DNA from: Flavobacteriales bacterium
GTDB taxonomy: Bacteria; Bacteroidota; Bacteroidia; Flavobacteriales_D; Crocinitomicaceae
Reading direction: 5' to 3'
Assembly: GCA_947449575.1 (NCBI GenBank)
Contig: CANFRV010000023.1
Coordinates: forward strand, 1-61,983
DNA length: 61,983 nucleotides
Positions within the stretch are counted from its first letter, which is position 1; each line of letters begins with the position of its first letter. Below, piece by piece: positions 38,465 through 46,087 of this stretch. The position numbers and the translations under genes were made by a program. The notes under the pieces were generated by a model. The model saw only the letters and a program-made list of their open reading frames with translations. It was not told the DNA's origin and ran no database searches.

Positions 38465-39421
38465 ATGGAAAACGAAAATTCAGAGTATTTTTTCGAAAAA
38501 CTAGATCAAAATAAAATAGATGATCTATTGTTTTTATTTAAAGAAGTTTTTAATTCCTTTCCTTCAAAAGATGAAATAGCAGATAAGCATAAGAATTGTC
38601 ATGGACAAGAAAAATTTATTGGATATATAGCATACGATCGTTTAAGCAAGAAACCTGCTGCTTTTTATGGCGTTTTCCCTTTATATGCAATAGTGAAAGG
38701 ACAAAAAATATTAATTGCACAATCGGGCGATACCATGACGCATCCAAGCCATCAAAAAAAAGGGTTATTTTTTCAATTGGCTAAGAAAACATTCGAGTTT
38801 TGCTTACAGAATGAAATTAAAATGATTTTTGGTTTCCCAAATTCTGTATCTCATCCTTTATTTATAAATAAATTAGGTTTTTCTGAAACAAAGCAGCTCG
38901 TCAATAGCACATTATTTGAGAATAAGTTGGAAGTATGTCGATTTTCTCAAAAGAATAAAACGATGGCGAAAATTCATAATTTTCATTTAAAATGTATACT
39001 ATTATTTTTTTCTAGGGGTAAGTCTTTTCAAAATTCAAACGCAATTTTTGAAAATGAAAAGGCATACATGTTACACGATAGTGTTTATCATAAATGGAAA
39101 TCCAGCACCAATAAATTTTTCTTAAAAATCCATGGAGTAAATGTGTGGATTAGTTGTGCTCAAAATCAAATTGCAATTGGTGACATAGAACTTCTTAATG
39201 AACAAGATTTAGAGAAGGTCCTTCGCAAATTGAAAATCCTAACCTTCTTATTAGGGTATCGATTTTTGTCGATTGGAGGGAGTGAAGACAGTTATTTAAT
39301 CAAATTATTGAAAGGAAAATATGAGCAATTACCTTCTTATACGCCTATTTTTTTAGATCTGTCAGATTCATTGCCTCATTCAAGTTTCTTATTTTTAAAT
39401 TCAGACGTTGATGTTTTCTAA
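38465..39421 (+). CDS. GNAT-family N-acetyltransferase
   Basis: 318 aa. AQSGDTMTHPSHQKKGLFFQ (about residues 86-105) followed by LAKKTFEF is GNAT motif A with a relaxed acetyl-CoA loop (HQKKGLF). NSVSHPLFINKLGF matches motif B of such proteins. The second half has no clear assignment. Members of this type occur in polysaccharide loci and may N-acetylate amino sugars. It overlaps the next gene by about 11 nt, so they act as a pair. Confidence 0.8.
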   Translation: MENENSEYFFEKLDQNKIDDLLFLFKEVFNSFPSKDEIADKHKNCHGQEKFIGYIAYDRLSKKPAAFYGVFPLYAIVKGQKILIAQSGDTMTHPSHQKKGLFFQLAKKTFEFCLQNEIKMIFGFPNSVSHPLFINKLGFSETKQLVNSTLFENKLEVCRFSQKNKTMAKIHNFHLKCILLFFSRGKSFQNSNAIFENEKAYMLHDSVYHKWKSSTNKFFLKIHGVNVWISCAQNQIAIGDIELLNEQDLEKVLRKLKILTFLLGYRFLSIGGSEDSYLIKLLKGKYEQLPSYTPIFLDLSDSLPHSSFLFLNSDVDVF

Positions 39422-40316
39422 AATAATTGAACGATTAAAATATTTCTTTTTTGATGTCGAAAATGATTGGGAAATAGGCTTTTCAAAAGTACCTATTGAA
39501 CATTTTTTGTCAAATAATCAACCAAAGATGAATTGGCTTAAAATGCCAAGAAATGTATTTTGGGCTGACCCTTTTGGGATGCATCTAGAAGATAAATATT
39601 TTGTTTTTTATGAAGAATTTAATAAAATAAAAGACTACGGAACGATTAATTGTTTAGTACTAAATAAGCAATTTGAAATTATTGAAAACAAAGTAATTAT
39701 TGATGAGGGTGTTCATTTTTCTTTTCCATATCTCTTGCAGTGGAAAGGTGAATATTATATGCTGCCTGAAACATGTCAAAAAAATGAAATTTCACTATAT
39801 AAATCAAGTAACTTTCCGTTTGAATGGAAACAAGAAAAAGTACTTCTAAAAATTCCTGGTATGGACAATGTACTTTTTCATCATTCCGGTAAATGGTGGT
39901 TGGTATACTCATCAGCTAACTCTGAAACAGAAAGCATCTATTATGTGCGATCTAATAACGATCTATTGGGAGATTGGGAAAAATGTGAGGAGCAGATAGT
40001 ACACGGTTCACTCTATAATTCTAGATCTGGAGGAAGCGTATTTGAGCATAAGGATGAATTGTTTAGAATAATGCAAAATTGTACGGATAGTTATGGGCAA
40101 TCAGTCGTAATAAATAAAATAGTTAATCTTTCAGAAACAGATTTTAGAGAAGAAGCCATAAAAGAAATTAAATTGACATCATATTTAAACACGGGTTTCC
40201 ATACGATTTCAAAATGTGGTTCTGTTTCATTCATCGATCGAAGAAGAGAGAGATTGTTTTTAAAACCAATTGGCAAGATTTTCAAATCGGTATTTTCAAA
40301 ATTTACTTCATCGTAA
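39411..40316 (+). CDS. Beta-propeller protein like the sugar-binding domain of GIPC glucosamine transferase
   Basis: About 301 aa from ATG 39411 (a TTG one codon upstream is possible). FWADPFGMHLEDKYFVFYEE (about residues 43-62) and later VLFHHSGKWWLVYSS, GSLYNSRSGGSVF, FRIMQNC are five-bladed-propeller repeats like those of GH43-type folds. In annotation this family is named after plant glucosamine inositolphosphorylceramide transferase 1. It often sits beside sugar-modifying transferases in bacterial polysaccharide loci. Role here: a carbohydrate-acting or carbohydrate-binding protein coupled to the GNAT gene. The actual reaction is unknown. Confidence 0.72.
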   Translation: MFSKIIERLKYFFFDVENDWEIGFSKVPIEHFLSNNQPKMNWLKMPRNVFWADPFGMHLEDKYFVFYEEFNKIKDYGTINCLVLNKQFEIIENKVIIDEGVHFSFPYLLQWKGEYYMLPETCQKNEISLYKSSNFPFEWKQEKVLLKIPGMDNVLFHHSGKWWLVYSSANSETESIYYVRSNNDLLGDWEKCEEQIVHGSLYNSRSGGSVFEHKDELFRIMQNCTDSYGQSVVINKIVNLSETDFREEAIKEIKLTSYLNTGFHTISKCGSVSFIDRRRERLFLKPIGKIFKSVFSKFTSS

Positions 40317-40326
40317 TCTATAGTTT

Positions 40327-41463
40327 GTGAAAATAGTACACATCATTCCTTCCTTAGCTTGCGGAGGTGCAGAAATTTTAATGGGCAACATTGCAATTGA
40401 ACAGGCTCAAACAGGTCATGAAGTGAATATTATTGTATTAGAAAAATTAAATGATTCCTTTTTAAAATATCCACTGAAGGAGCAGTTAAAAAATTTAGTA
40501 AAAATTATTGACATGGATGTAAACATTTCATTTTCTTTCCTGAAAAATGAATTAGTAGTAAGCAACAAATCATTTGATGAATTTTTGACTAATTTTCAGC
40601 CTGAAATTGTACATTCTCATTTATTTATGTCAGAATTAATTTCACGAAATAATCTTCTAGCAGGCGTAAAATACTTCACGCATTGTCATAATAATATGCC
40701 GCAATTTAACTTTCTGGAAAAGAAAAAATTTAAAAGAAGAATAACAGATTTTCGGGAGTATAAATGGCTGATGAAGAAGTATATGGAATGTGGTAATCAC
40801 TTTATCACCATTTCAAAGGATACGCATGCTTTTTATAAAAAATGGGTGCATTCAACGATACGTGATCATATTTATTTCTTAAAAAATGGCATTAATACCT
40901 CGATATATTATTCAAATAAGGAGAAAATAAATGAGCCAATTTTTCAATTAATCACAGTAGGTACTTTGCTTAAAAACAAGGGGCATTCGTTTTTAATTGA
41001 TTGCGTCAATGAGTTAGTAAATGAAGGGATAGAAATACAATTGAGCATTGTAGGCGATGGACCTGAGATGTCTGAATTAGCAGGAAAAATAGAGATGTTG
41101 GGTTTGAAAAAGAACATTTTTTTAATAGGGAATGTGGGAAATGTAAATGATTATTTAAGTCAAGCACATCTATATGTGCATGCAGCTTTTAAAGAAGCTT
41201 TTGGCTTGGTTTTAATAGAAGCAATGGCGTCGGAATTACCTGTAATAGCTACAAATGGGGGAGGAAACAAAGATTTGATTATAAATGATTACAATGGTTA
41301 TTTACTTGAAAGACGAGATGTTGAGCAATTTAATGAGAAAATTAAATTTCTACTAAATAATCCCGCAGCAAGAGTGAAATTGGGAGAAAATGCAATTGAT
41401 TTTTCAAAGTCCTTTGATATCAAAGAATACGTGATTAAACTGCACGAAATGTATTTAAAATAA
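40327..41463 (+). CDS. Glycosyltransferase family 4
   Basis: 378 aa, GTG start. HIIPSLACGGAEILMGNIA is the GT4 N-terminal glycine loop. LLKNKGHSFLIDCV and the donor EX7E motif EAFGLVLIE with AMASELPVIATNGGG (about residues 294-316) are clear. Its 3' end overlaps the minus-strand HisF-like gene tail to tail by 9 nt. Confidence 0.94.
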   Translation: MKIVHIIPSLACGGAEILMGNIAIEQAQTGHEVNIIVLEKLNDSFLKYPLKEQLKNLVKIIDMDVNISFSFLKNELVVSNKSFDEFLTNFQPEIVHSHLFMSELISRNNLLAGVKYFTHCHNNMPQFNFLEKKKFKRRITDFREYKWLMKKYMECGNHFITISKDTHAFYKKWVHSTIRDHIYFLKNGINTSIYYSNKEKINEPIFQLITVGTLLKNKGHSFLIDCVNELVNEGIEIQLSIVGDGPEMSELAGKIEMLGLKKNIFLIGNVGNVNDYLSQAHLYVHAAFKEAFGLVLIEAMASELPVIATNGGGNKDLIINDYNGYLLERRDVEQFNEKIKFLLNNPAARVKLGENAIDFSKSFDIKEYVIKLHEMYLK

Positions 41464-42213
41464 TTTTTTGATTTCGTCTTTAGTAGGATATGTAATCAAT
41501 ACTGCACGATGGGCTTTTTGATAGACAAATAGACTTCCTGCAGCAACAGCAGAGGCACCAGCTGTTTTGGCTTCCTTTAAATCTGCCAATGCACCAGCTC
41601 CTCCAAGCGCAACAAGGGGTATTTTCAGTGTGCTTGCAATCGATTGAATGAGCGATAAATCATATCCTAGCATTGTCCCGTCCTTATCGATTGAATTCAA
41701 GATAATTTCCCCAACCCCAGCGTCCTCCATTTTTTTTGCGTATTCCAGGGGTGAAATTTTTGTATTGACATTCCCGGAATTCACAAAGACCGTTTGTTTT
41801 TTACTCAACCACGCTTTTTTCACATCCATGGATGCAATAATACTTTGGCTGCCAAAAACATGCACTGCTTCTGAAATTAATTTTTCGTTATGAAAAGCGG
41901 CACTATTTAAAATAATTTTTTCAATACCTAAGTTAAATAATTTTTCGATTTCACCAAGGGAGGTAATTCCGCCACCATATCCCAAAGGCATGAAGCATTC
42001 AGTTGATATTTCAGAAAGTAATTTAAAATTTGGGCCACGTTTTTCTTGCGTTGCTGTAATGTCTAAAAACACTAATTCATCCACTTCCTTGTCATTGAAA
42101 ATTTTAATGGCATTGATAGGATCACCAATGTAGGATGGGTTTTTAAATTGTACCGTTTTTACTAGGCCATTTCCTTTTAATAATAAACAGGGTATAACTC
42201 TAGTACTTAACAT
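41455..42213 (-). CDS. hisF: HisF-like protein (WbuZ type) of sugar amidation
   Basis: 252 aa, (beta/alpha)8 barrel. It begins MLSTRVIPCLLLKGNGLVKT. True HisF has Asp at position 11 (CLDV) as a catalytic residue for imidazole ring closure. Here it is Leu11, while the second Asp (SMDVKK) is kept. That is the pattern of HisF-like partners in O-antigen loci, which pass ammonia to an N-acetyl-sugar amidotransferase rather than make histidine. PLGYGGGI and VALGGAGALADL are phosphate-binding loops. The start overlaps the HisH-like stop by 7 nt, and the WbpG-like partner is the divergent fusion gene at 43120. Confidence 0.93.
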   Translation of the reverse strand: MLSTRVIPCLLLKGNGLVKTVQFKNPSYIGDPINAIKIFNDKEVDELVFLDITATQEKRGPNFKLLSEISTECFMPLGYGGGITSLGEIEKLFNLGIEKIILNSAAFHNEKLISEAVHVFGSQSIIASMDVKKAWLSKKQTVFVNSGNVNTKISPLEYAKKMEDAGVGEIILNSIDKDGTMLGYDLSLIQSIASTLKIPLVALGGAGALADLKEAKTAGASAVAAGSLFVYQKAHRAVLITYPTKDEIKKLF

Positions 42214-42821
42214 TTTTCAATGAAATTTTTAATGAGTTGCATGCCAAATTTATGACTTTTCTCTGGGTGAAATTGCACTCCAATAATATTTTCTTTAAAA
42301 ATTCCTGAAGCAAATGAATAGCCAAATTTAGTTGTCGTTAAAACATTCTCATCACTCTCACACACCGCATGATACGAATGAACAAAATAAAATCTTGGAT
42401 CATCATGGTATCCTCCGCTTAACCTATGTGAAGTAGAAAAAATGGTGTCATTCCAACCCATGTGTGGGACTTTTAAATCAGGAAAATCGGAGATTTTAAA
42501 TTTCACCGTTTTCGCATTTATCCAACCCAATCCTTTTACATCGCCTTCTTCACTTGAGTTAGTTAATAATTGCATGCCTAAGCAAATTCCCAAAATGGGA
42601 GTTTTTTCTACAAGGGCTTTTTGATTTAAGACTGGGATTAAGTTCATTTCTTTTAAATTACTCATTGCTTTTTCAAATGACCCAACTCCAGGTAAAATAA
42701 TTTTTGAAGCACTAGAAATGACATCAATATCAGAAGAAATAACGGACGAATGGCCAATTTTTTTGATGATATTGCTAATGGAACCGAGATTCCCCATCTT
42801 ATAATCTATGATCACAATCAT
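42207..42821 (-). CDS. hisH: HisH-like glutamine amidotransferase (WbuY type)
   Basis: 204 aa, class I glutaminase. The Cys nucleophile is in GICLGMQLL (about residue 81) and the His-Glu pair in GVQFHPEKSH. It would release ammonia from glutamine for the HisF-like protein encoded next in the same unit. No other histidine genes are present, so the pair most likely works with the WbpG-like domain at 43120 to turn an N-acetyl group into an acetamidino group (known for WbuXYZ and WbpG/HisH2/HisF2 systems; its use here is inference). Confidence 0.93.
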   Translation of the reverse strand: MIVIIDYKMGNLGSISNIIKKIGHSSVISSDIDVISSASKIILPGVGSFEKAMSNLKEMNLIPVLNQKALVEKTPILGICLGMQLLTNSSEEGDVKGLGWINAKTVKFKISDFPDLKVPHMGWNDTIFSTSHRLSGGYHDDPRFYFVHSYHAVCESDENVLTTTKFGYSFASGIFKENIIGVQFHPEKSHKFGMQLIKNFIEKC

Positions 42822-43000: not shown

Positions 43001-43038
43001 TTCAATCGATAAAGAGAAATTTCTCTTTATCGATTGAA
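43001..43038. promoter_or_regulatory. Perfect 38-nt palindrome between divergent amidation genes
   Basis: The left arm TTCAATCGATAAAGAGAAA is followed at once by its exact reverse complement, with no loop and no mismatch over 19+19 nt. It lies 180 nt from the HisH-like start and 82 nt from the fusion gene's ATG. No T-run follows on the plus strand, so a simple terminator is unlikely. An operator or a cruciform-forming site for both transcripts is possible. Confidence 0.6.
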
Positions 43039-43075: not shown

Positions 43076-43083
43076 TATATTTG
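43076..43083 (+). promoter_or_regulatory. Bacteroidota -7 element for the GT4-WbpG fusion
   Basis: TATATTTG matches TAnnTTTG exactly. Transcription would start near 43088-43090, after the TTG at 43081, which supports translation from ATG 43120 (or 43090). No good TTG is visible 17-23 nt upstream, so the -33 part is poor. Confidence 0.45.
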
Positions 43084-43119: not shown

Positions 43120-45540
43120 ATGGAAAATAGAAAAAACTTAGTAATTTTTGTTGCGGATTACCCTTTTGGAACGGGAGAGCCATTTTTAGAGGAGGAAATA
43201 AAAATTCTTGAAAATGATTTTGAGAAAATATTTTTTGTTCATACAAGCGTTCGAGGTCAAGCAAGCGAAAATTTTAAATTATATACACCCAAAAATGCCG
43301 AAATAGTAAATTTATACCCAAGTAATTTTGCTAGTTCATGGTTTAAAAAAGCCCTTCAGTTATTTTCTTTTTCATTTTTATTCGAAATTTTCCTAGCAAA
43401 AAGTAAACATCATAAAAATTTTTCGCTTAAAATTTTGAAATTAATTTCTCATTATTGGGTATCAAGCACGAATGGTAAAAAAGCAATTGAATATTTGATT
43501 AAAACAAATAAAATAGTAGTAAAAGATACTATTTTTTATTCATATTGGTGTGATATTCATGCTCTTTCTATGGCTAGATTACATAAATCAAATTCAGAAA
43601 TAAAATTTATTACACGATTACACGGTTGGGATTTGTATTTTGAAAGACATGAAAATAATTTTTTACCTTTTAGAGAATTAATATTTAATCAAGCAGAAAA
43701 AATACTTCCTATTTCGAATGATGGAAGAAAGTATATTTTGAATAAAAAATTAAGTATTCATCCTGAAAAAATTATTACGAGTAGATTAGGGGTAGATAAC
43801 TTACTAACAAATAAGAACTATCCTCTCGCTATAGATCAATCAAATGCGCCAGCAAAGTTAATTATTTTGACTTTGTCACATATTAATCCTGTTAAAAGGT
43901 TAGATCGGTTTATTGAAGCAATTAAATTAGTGAAAGGTTTTGATATTCAATGGTATCATATAGGATATGGGTATGAAGAATATGAAAGTAAAATAAAAAA
44001 ACTTGCTTTTGCTGAGTTAGAAAATCAACATAATATTAGTTTCAATTTTCTGGGTCAATTTACAAAAACAGAAGTGAAAACTTTTTTACAATTTGAAAAC
44101 ATAGATTTAATTGTTAATTGCAGTGATACGGAAGGTATTCCGGTATCTTTGATGGAAGCTATGTCATCGGGTATTCCCGCAATAGCATTTAATATTGGAG
44201 GAATTCCAGGAATTGTTTCGAATAATGAAAATGGTTTTTTATTAGATTTTGAGACAGAGAATGCAAATATTTTAAAACTATCTGCTAGTATTGAAAAATT
44301 TTATCATTTGCCTTCAGAGGAAAAAAATAGGTTTTCTCAAAATGCTAAGTTAACTTGGCAAGAAAAGTTTGATCAGAAAAATAACTTCAATAATTTGTCA
44401 CAATTATTAAAGTATAAAGACGCTAAGATAAGAAATGAAATTTGTTGTCAGCAGTGCCTAATTAGCAGTGCTATTTATCCTAAGATTGTTCTAAATAAAT
44501 ATGGTATTTGCGATGTTTGTGAAATTGTAGAAGATAAAAATGCAAAAATTGCAAAACAAAAAGACAGTAATTATTTAGATACTTTATTAAGTGAAATAAA
44601 AAGAAATCCCAACAAGAAACAATATGATTGTATTCTTGGAATCAGTGGAGGTATAGATAGTGCATACTTAGCTTTAAAGGTCAAGGAATGGGGTTTAAAT
44701 CCTTTACTTGTGCATATTGACAATGGTTGGAATTCTGAAACTGCAGTATTTAATATTCAGACATTAATAAAGCATCTAGGTTTTGAATTATATACGGTAG
44801 TTATTAATTGGGAGGAAATTAAAGACGTCGTTCGATCTTTTTTAAAAGCATCGGTAATAGATATTGATTGGGCAAATGAAATGTGTGCTCAAGCAGCTTT
44901 AAATAAAGTTGCTCATAAATTTGGAGTGAAATATGTTTTGACGGGTCATCAAATGGCAACTGAAGGATGGATGCCTGACAATGTTGTGCATTATAAATTA
45001 GATTCTATAAATTTTAAGGCCATTCATAGAAAATTTGGAAGTAAAAAATTGAAAACATATCCTATTATCGGGTTTTTAAAAACTTATTATTACGAGAAAA
45101 TACTGGGCATTAAATTCTACTATCCATTAGATTACATTGAGTATAATAAAGAAAAAGTTAGGGTTGAACTAGTTGAAAAGTATGGGTGGCGAGATTATGG
45201 GCAAAAGCATTTCGAAAATATATTTACACGTTTTTATCAAGGCTATATTCTCATTAAAAAATTTAAAATTGATAAACGAAAGTTTCATTATTCTTCTTCT
45301 ATATTATCAGGTCAGATGACAAAAGATCAAGCAAATAAACTTATTGAATCAAATGAATATCAGCTTTCGGGACAATTAGAAGAAGATAAAGAATATGTGA
45401 TGAAGAAATTGGAATTTTCTCCTGAAGAGTTTGAAGAAATATTAAATGCAGCGCCCAAAAATCATACGGATTATCCATCTATTATCAATGTGATTAAGAA
45501 ATTAAAAAAGGTTAAAAATGTTATTCAGAATAATAAATAA
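43120..45540 (+). CDS. GT4 glycosyltransferase fused to a WbpG/PseA-like N-acetyl-sugar amidotransferase
   Basis: 806 aa from ATG 43120 (in-frame TTG 43081 and ATG 43090 are less likely). Residues 1-~430 are a GT-B GT4 enzyme with GTGEPFLEEEI near the start and the EX7E motif at Glu338/Glu346 (EGIPVSLME). Residues ~440-806 are a WbpG/WbuX/PseA-like amidotransferase: zinc-type pairs C443xxC446 and C464xxC467, the ATP PP-loop SGGIDSAY from residue 509, VLTGHQMATEG, and the family's long C-terminal region. The second part would activate an N-acetyl sugar and, with ammonia from HisH/HisF encoded just across the divergent promoter region, make an acetamidino sugar. I know these activities as separate proteins. 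The frame is open throughout the joint at 44400-44460. Confidence 0.94.
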   Translation: MENRKNLVIFVADYPFGTGEPFLEEEIKILENDFEKIFFVHTSVRGQASENFKLYTPKNAEIVNLYPSNFASSWFKKALQLFSFSFLFEIFLAKSKHHKNFSLKILKLISHYWVSSTNGKKAIEYLIKTNKIVVKDTIFYSYWCDIHALSMARLHKSNSEIKFITRLHGWDLYFERHENNFLPFRELIFNQAEKILPISNDGRKYILNKKLSIHPEKIITSRLGVDNLLTNKNYPLAIDQSNAPAKLIILTLSHINPVKRLDRFIEAIKLVKGFDIQWYHIGYGYEEYESKIKKLAFAELENQHNISFNFLGQFTKTEVKTFLQFENIDLIVNCSDTEGIPVSLMEAMSSGIPAIAFNIGGIPGIVSNNENGFLLDFETENANILKLSASIEKFYHLPSEEKNRFSQNAKLTWQEKFDQKNNFNNLSQLLKYKDAKIRNEICCQQCLISSAIYPKIVLNKYGICDVCEIVEDKNAKIAKQKDSNYLDTLLSEIKRNPNKKQYDCILGISGGIDSAYLALKVKEWGLNPLLVHIDNGWNSETAVFNIQTLIKHLGFELYTVVINWEEIKDVVRSFLKASVIDIDWANEMCAQAALNKVAHKFGVKYVLTGHQMATEGWMPDNVVHYKLDSINFKAIHRKFGSKKLKTYPIIGFLKTYYYEKILGIKFYYPLDYIEYNKEKVRVELVEKYGWRDYGQKHFENIFTRFYQGYILIKKFKIDKRKFHYSSSILSGQMTKDQANKLIESNEYQLSGQLEEDKEYVMKKLEFSPEEFEEILNAAPKNHTDYPSIINVIKKLKKVKNVIQNNK

Positions 45541-46087
45541 AATAAAATATAAATTATTATTATCGCAGATTAAACCAGAAATAATTGGATATCAAGATGC
45601 GAAAGGAACAACGATTCATGAAACCGGAGCAAGTAATATGTCTCATATTTCCAATAAAAAAAATGTTTTTATTGGGGAACATGTCTTTATTGGTCATTTC
45701 AATTACATTGATGGCTATAGAAAAATTGTCATTGAAGAAGGTTGTCAAATCACGAATTATGTTTCAATATTAACGCATTCTAGTCATCATTCGATTCGAT
45801 TACATGGCAATAAAACACTTCCTGAAAATCTAGCGGAAGAAGGCTTACTTGCGGATGAAGTGCACATTGGGAAATATTCATATATCGGTGCTCATTCAGT
45901 AATCATGCCGGGCACCAAAATCGGGAAAGGTTCAATCGTATCTGCTTTTTCTTATGTGAATGGGGAATTTCCTGATTATTCAATTGTGAGAGGTCAACCA
46001 GCTAGAATCGTTGGTAATACGAAGGAAATGGATGAGGAATTTCTGTCAAAATTTCCAGAATTGAAAAACTTTCATTTTGATAAGTAA
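45518..46087 (+). CDS. Hexapeptide-repeat acyltransferase
   Basis: 189 aa. VFIGEHVFIGHFNYIDG, IVIEEGCQIT, THSSHHSIR (catalytic-loop His residues), VHIGKYSYIGAHSVIMPGT and the end SIVRGQPARIVG define a left-handed beta-helix acetyltransferase. It overlaps the fusion gene by 23 nt, indicating coupled translation and perhaps a shared sugar target (an amino sugar to be acetylated). The reaction is inferred. Confidence 0.9.
   Translation: MLFRIINKIKYKLLLSQIKPEIIGYQDAKGTTIHETGASNMSHISNKKNVFIGEHVFIGHFNYIDGYRKIVIEEGCQITNYVSILTHSSHHSIRLHGNKTLPENLAEEGLLADEVHIGKYSYIGAHSVIMPGTKIGKGSIVSAFSYVNGEFPDYSIVRGQPARIVGNTKEMDEEFLSKFPELKNFHFDK

Follow-up and report, generated by a model that had tools for sequence, protein, structure and literature searches.

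A GT4 glycosyltransferase and a WbuX-type N-acetyl-sugar amidotransferase in one chain, with related fusions in other genomes

An uncultured Bacteroidota carries a gene that encodes, in one chain of 806 residues, a GT4 glycosyltransferase followed by a WbuX-type N-acetyl-sugar amidotransferase, and the same fusion recurs in other genomes. The amidotransferase family converts the N-acetyl group of its sugar to an acetamidino group, which carries a positive charge, and sugars so modified occur on bacterial surfaces, in O-antigens, in flagellin glycans and in O-glycans of Bacteroidota. WbpG and WbuX themselves are stand-alone proteins. The reading towards which we lean is that of a bifunctional enzyme, whose amidotransferase half would modify the sugar that its GT4 half transfers, with amidation of the nucleotide sugar as the first step. 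The architecture is new, although the component enzymes are known; among the matches listed in open-licence PMC full text, as represented by title and start of abstract, none describes this fusion.

The fused gene and its neighbours

The window, i.e. the whole stretch of DNA that was analysed (61,983 nucleotides), makes up the whole of contig C23, in a 3.5-Mb genome assembled as 69 contigs. The fused gene is a single stop-free frame that runs from an ATG at 43120 to the stop at 45540; an in-frame TTG lies upstream of this ATG, at 43081. The features are as follows.

41455 to 42213, minus strand: hisF2, AglZ/HisF2-type acetamidino modification protein (NF038364, 360.4 bits, cut-off 310)
42207 to 42821, minus strand: hisH2, HisH-like glutaminase subunit with GICLGMQ and HPEKS motifs in the translation (TIGR01855, 235 bits, cut-off 105.4)
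43120 to 45540, plus strand: fused gene, GT4 glycosyltransferase and WbuX-type N-acetyl-sugar amidotransferase, 806 residues (frame, profiles, alignment, model, motifs)
43120 to 44420, plus strand: GT4 half (GT-B fold), residues 1 to about 433, EX7E at 338/346 (Pfam, VIA-align, motif)
44425 to 45537, plus strand: amidotransferase half, residues 436-806, CxxC at 443 and 464, PP-loop SGGIDS at 509 (NCBIfam TIGR03573; PDB 8wex by sequence and fold)
45518 to 46087, plus strand: hexapeptide acyltransferase gene, downstream of the fusion (Pfam, neighbour map)

In the N-terminal half, Pfam Glycos_transf_1 matches residues 245-410 with 86.3 bits (cut-off 26.4, E 2e-24), and the glutamates of the EX7E motif are E338 and E346. 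When model residues 4-434 are compared with GT4 structures by VIA-align, the best match is 2jjm (Z 32.0, rmsd 4.2, 346 residues), which indicates a GT-B fold. BshA (2jjm, 3mbo) and WcaL, which are among the best PDB and NCBIfam neighbours of this half, have the same fold and the EX7E motif; neither is known with an amidotransferase attached. An assignment as WcaL or BshA was rejected, as the scores fall far below both NCBIfam equivalog cut-offs (72.1 of 537.6 and 68.2 of 273.7 bits, respectively).

The C-terminal half matches the NCBIfam WbuX profile TIGR03573 over residues 442-775 with 255 bits (cut-off 203.2), covering profile positions 3-343 of 344. The two CxxC pairs form a tetracysteine (zinc site), which together with the PP-loop SGGxDS defines N-acetyl sugar amidotransferases in the structure paper (PMC10607449). 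One solved structure was found for the family, that of LpNASAT from Legionella pneumophila (8wex). The fusion protein matches it by sequence (E 1.2e-07) and its model does so by Foldseek (E 1.3e-13, 19% identical in the alignment). Tetracysteine and PP-loop are common to LpNASAT and the window protein, but LpNASAT is a stand-alone chain of 468 residues.

In the AlphaFold model of the 806-residue protein (mean pLDDT 91.3), both halves are well folded, and a short stretch of low confidence at 435-437 links them. The pTM of 0.70 leaves the mutual placement of the halves unfixed, and with the low-confidence link it gives no support in the model to a fixed contact between them. From sequence, both halves look complete. 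The preliminary description had reported a GT4 enzyme and an amidotransferase in one chain, with an EX7E motif, two CxxC pairs and a PP-loop, and had proposed a domain search; the single frame, domain matches over the cut-offs in both halves and the positions of the motifs bear this out.

The hisH2 and hisF2 genes adjoin the fused gene and are divergent from it. Two known systems, WbpG/HisH2/HisF2 of Pseudomonas aeruginosa O5 and WbuX/WbuY/WbuZ of E. coli O145, likewise have an amidotransferase of the TIGR03573 family with HisH- and HisF-type partners beside it. Unlike WbpG and WbuX, however, the window amidotransferase is preceded by a GT4 enzyme in the same chain. The HisF2-type partner (NF038364) is also that of the archaeal AglZ/HisF2 system of Methanococcus maripaludis (MMP1081-1083), which differs in that its genes are separate and serve the N-glycan of the archaeal flagellin (PMC2952790).

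The window hisF2 is an extra copy. A second HisH, HisA and HisF are encoded in the histidine operon on contig C4 of the same genome, with hisF at G000:C4:41579-42286. Inspection by eye shows that in the window HisF2 (41455-42213) a leucine replaces the aspartate of the CLDIK motif that is present in the operon HisF; this aspartate is presumably needed for the normal HisF reaction.

The hexapeptide acyltransferase gene adjoins the fusion at two other loci as well (L023 and L026). Other genes around the fusion encode glycosyltransferases, acyltransferases, an AsnB-like and a GalE-like protein. Positions 39408-40316 of the window give a Pfam GINT1_N match (131 bits), a domain named for glucosamine inositolphosphorylceramide transferase 1. 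A perfect, loop-less palindrome of 38 bases is found at 43001-43038, between the divergent hisH2 and fusion genes. The core of this palindrome has no second copy in the genome when up to 3 mismatches are allowed. The palindrome was rejected as a conserved operator, as no such perfect repeat is present in six related stretches.

Recurrence and history of the fusion

Of 59 genomes, namely that of the window and 58 relatives, 18 gave a WbuX match. Among 240 genomes drawn from across the family, a WbuX match exceeds the cut-off in 88, and in 13 of the 88 it stands in a frame of 735-824 residues behind a glycosyltransferase. Twelve of these 13 fusions have the same GT4 family, here called type A, and one (G030) has a different GT4. 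A class-wide draw of 395 genomes gave 129 over the WbuX cut-off, at least 17 of them in frames of more than 600 residues, which are not all glycosyltransferase fusions. A phylum-wide draw, also of 395 genomes, gave 54 over the cut-off and, among long frames scoring above that cut-off, one of more than 600 residues only in the window genome. Among plasmids, 54 records match the fusion protein, and none of them covers 80% of it. From the phylum-wide draw and the plasmids, the fusion was rejected as a general feature of the amidotransferase.

Four frames of more than 600 residues below the cut-off were inspected and have another architecture, an N-terminal class II glutaminase/AsnB-like start and then a WbuX-like domain. 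In two of these (L037:204-2222:+ and L038:102-1946:-) the WbuX-like domain lies behind a Pfam GATase_7 match, and in the other two (L167:5718-7778:+ and L168:1163-3232:-) the glutaminase/AsnB-like start was recognised by eye. These proteins may be amidotransferases that supply their own ammonia.

Once identical sequences are removed, there are 19 type-A fused rows, 12 from genomes of the window's family and seven from two other family groups, so that three family groups of the class are represented. One row (L166) is cut by a contig end; a further long frame (L074) was excluded, as its first 500 residues look by eye like read-through of high-GC DNA. All 19 rows retain the EX7E motif, the two CxxC pairs at a spacing of 21 residues, and SGGxDS, and six fused rows aligned to the window protein are 38-56% identical to it. 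The preliminary description had called for a search for the same fusion elsewhere, and had allowed for a sequencing error that joins two genes. The 18 further distinct fused rows in other genomes, with their motifs kept, rule out such a sequencing or assembly error.

A HisF2-like gene is present in all 19 type-A fusion genomes with at least 273 bits, and in 15 it exceeds the cut-off of 310 (G034, G074, G626 and G427 fall below). It lies within 1 kb of the fusion in eight genomes and is not beside it in 11; in 10 of the latter it is on another contig, many of these being short, and in G260 it is 20 kb away.

Contigs of named genomes scanned with the fusion alignment yielded 77 loci. Eight are type-A fusions (L041-L048), all from MAGs. 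Five others (L049, L051-L054) have the same two genes unfused on one strand, glycosyltransferase then amidotransferase; divergent hisH2 and hisF2 flank them on the other side, which is also the arrangement in the window. Measured from the first in-frame ATG, the two genes overlap by 4-8 bases, with ATGA in four pairs and 8 bases in the fifth. The unfused overlapping pair is likely the precursor state: where the overlap is a few bases, one insertion or deletion there can yield the fusion, which thus copies an existing neighbourhood. The gene order is reversed in L050, and in L058, L088 and L032 (the last in G025, a relative) the glycosyltransferase is near the amidotransferase yet apart from it.

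Trees of the two halves speak to the history of the fusion. The tree of glycosyltransferase halves (30 rows) separates the fused rows into five supported groups, three of which also take in unfused neighbours (100/99); the AU test rejects a single clade of the 19 fused rows (p 0.0002). The 12 window-family rows form one clade (92/97) in the tree of amidotransferases (45 of 112 rows), where one clade of all 19 fused rows is again rejected (AU p 0.005). For the glycosyltransferase halves of these 12 rows, one clade is rejected too (AU p 0.004), a p-value that serves as a guide only, as the group was defined after inspection of a first tree. One single fusion event was rejected on the basis of these AU tests. 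Since the fused rows are not one clade for either half, the fusion arose, or was kept, repeatedly. The trees agree with repeated fusion, or with an early fusion that was later split, and with exchange of the glycosyltransferase half. The two halves have different histories, in which the glycosyltransferase seems to have been exchanged while the fused state stayed.

The type-A glycosyltransferase is found at 74 places in 67 of the 240 family genomes. It is fused at 12; among the 62 unfused places, nine have a WbuX match at up to 20 kb and 53 have none nearby, a count that leaves aside a single WbuX row of very weak score and fragments under about E 1e-20 and in which many contigs are short. Type-A glycosyltransferase and WbuX occur in the same genome somewhat above expectation (35 of the 240 genomes have both; Fisher p 0.012, kinship ignored). 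The window genome has two further type-A genes, on contig C19. Another is carried by a Parabacteroides plasmid, whose 17.9 kb shown include no annotated WbuX. The glycosyltransferase is therefore partly specific for amidation loci, and its family is not bound to amidation.

WbuX-family amidotransferases are also fused in other ways. The partner is a GT4 of another kind in L028, a GT2 in L154 (5385-7451, plus strand) and only the first domain of a GT4 in L156. In L161 it is possibly GT2-like, by a weak match below the cut-off, and in L153 an unmatched partner has a length similar to that in L161. Other partners are a hexapeptide acyltransferase (L155:5913-7727:+), an unrecognised 370-residue domain (L157-L159; L157:5297-7510:+) and a whole AsnB (L160:6018-9107:-). 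The genomes of L155 and L156 (G607 and G600) are without a strong HisF2-like gene. Two Rhodospirillales/Rhodospirillaceae contigs, L060 (L060:4769-7060:+) and L063, have the reversed order, amidotransferase then GT4, in line with hisH/hisF. Enzymes of glycan assembly predominate among the partners that were recognised, and this supports a working contact of the amidotransferase with glycosyltransferases. This contact is not exclusive, as the acyltransferase and AsnB fusions show. The tie to glycosyltransferases nevertheless recurs in several forms, and a functional link is supported more than chance.

Candidate sugar donor

UDP-ManNAc3NAcA is the sugar that WbpG is thought to serve. The window genome has, on contig C2, a run of WbpA-, WbpB-, WbpD- and WbpE-like genes (L176, G000:C2:8000-22000). 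The WbpA-like gene encodes an NDP-sugar dehydrogenase over its cut-off. The best PDB matches of the WbpB-like gene are a dehydrogenase and an oxidoreductase, structures that we take to be WbpB-type. The WbpD-like gene best matches 3mqg, an LPS biosynthesis acetyltransferase, and the WbpE-like gene matches WbpE structures (E 3e-95). One WbpI-like 2-epimerase is encoded elsewhere in the genome (L179, G000:C32), and its best PDB match is UDP-2,3-diacetamido-2,3-dideoxyglucuronic acid 2-epimerase. The presence of all five genes makes a di-N-acetyl uronic acid donor, UDP-ManNAc3NAcA, plausible.

It should be pointed out that the WbpD-like gene is found in 55 of the 59 genomes, with or without WbuX, and that diagnosis of the substrate from genome content was rejected for this reason. 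This distribution, and that of the WbpB-like gene (all 19 fusion genomes), speaks for availability of the donor and is not proof. An alternative sugar is L-FucNAm, known from Flavobacterium columnare (PMC3210612).

Coupling and order of the two steps

In the mechanism proposed here, HisH2 would free ammonia from glutamine and HisF2 would pass it to the C-terminal domain of the fusion, roles that the two proteins probably have by membership of their families. The PP-loop domain would spend ATP in converting the N-acetyl group of the sugar into an acetamidino group; the structure paper proposes the use of ATP and ammonia for the family (PMC10607449). The N-terminal GT4 domain would then place the same sugar on the growing lipid-linked glycan. 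We infer from the fusion that amidation is tied to transfer of the same sugar, and both domains are predicted to be active. The setting would be a cluster for a surface polysaccharide or a glycoprotein glycan, and the fusion would keep two successive steps on one residue together. In a freshwater Sphingomonas, a colony-morphology screen recovered insertions in WbuX, HisF2 and HisH genes, which are separate there and lie in a polysaccharide cluster (PMC11340318).

The order favoured is that the nucleotide sugar is amidated and then transferred. Campylobacter PseA probably acts on a CMP-sugar. This case, together with the use of nucleotide sugars by GT4 enzymes, gives the donor-first order a modest lead. 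In favour of the bifunctional reading as a whole are the two domains above their cut-offs, the motifs retained in all 19 fused rows, the adjoining hisH2 and hisF2, the HisF2-like gene in every type-A fusion genome, the overlapping unfused pairs, the other glycosyltransferase fusions, the nine unfused places close to WbuX and the Wbp-like genes. Points that weigh against it are the 11 fusion genomes whose HisF2-like gene is not adjacent, the wide spread of the WbpD-like gene, the 53 type-A places away from WbuX, the type-A copies on contig C19 and on the Parabacteroides plasmid, the fusions to an acyltransferase and to AsnB, the lack of a defined contact in the model and the MAG origin of all eight named type-A contigs.

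The preliminary description had suggested that amidation is coupled to transfer, perhaps on the lipid-linked sugar. Coupling remains plausible, given that the partners adjoin the fused gene and that the tie recurs, whereas sequence, trees and model fit amidation of the donor and of the lipid-linked product alike. In a tentative alternative, the GT4 half would first transfer the N-acetyl sugar to the lipid carrier, where the sugar would then be modified by the tethered amidotransferase. When the WbpG homologue of M. maripaludis is deleted, the third sugar is transferred without its acetamidino group and the fourth sugar is absent (PMC2952790). This result can be looked at as transfer preceding amidation, but equally as a glycosyltransferase that tolerates an unamidated donor, and it fits either order. 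Also in favour of the alternative are the pocket of the solved homologue, described as unusually wide and open (PMC10607449), and the recurrent fusion of the amidotransferase to transferases. However, nothing in the sequence points to a lipid-linked substrate, and the presumed action of PseA on a CMP-sugar argues against it. We regard it as rather unlikely that amidation takes place on the lipid-linked sugar just after transfer, with the acetamidino group written at the membrane and the repeated fusions reflecting a family habit of docking on glycosyltransferases.

A fusion without catalytic meaning, in which overlapping operon genes were joined by chance and tolerated because both products are needed in equal amounts, is improbable: the short overlap of the unfused neighbours, which one small deletion or insertion would bridge, the variety of partners, non-glycosyltransferase domains included, and the preponderance of unfused WbuX genes (13 glycosyltransferase fusions among the 88 family genomes) are in its favour, but the rejection of a single clade for either half, the apparent exchange of the glycosyltransferase half with the fused state kept, and the reversed order in another phylum count against it.

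The preferred reading, a bifunctional enzyme that amidates the donor sugar before transferring it, bears on a wider question. For Bacteroidota O-glycans, a 2025 review treats it as unknown whether such modifications are made at the nucleotide-sugar stage or after assembly (PMC12871550). The natural single-chain fusion brings amidation and transfer into one purifiable enzyme, so that the order of steps can be assayed directly. It also identifies the probable glycosyltransferase of the amidated sugar, and the recurrent fusions in related bacteria could help settle when the acetamidino modification happens.
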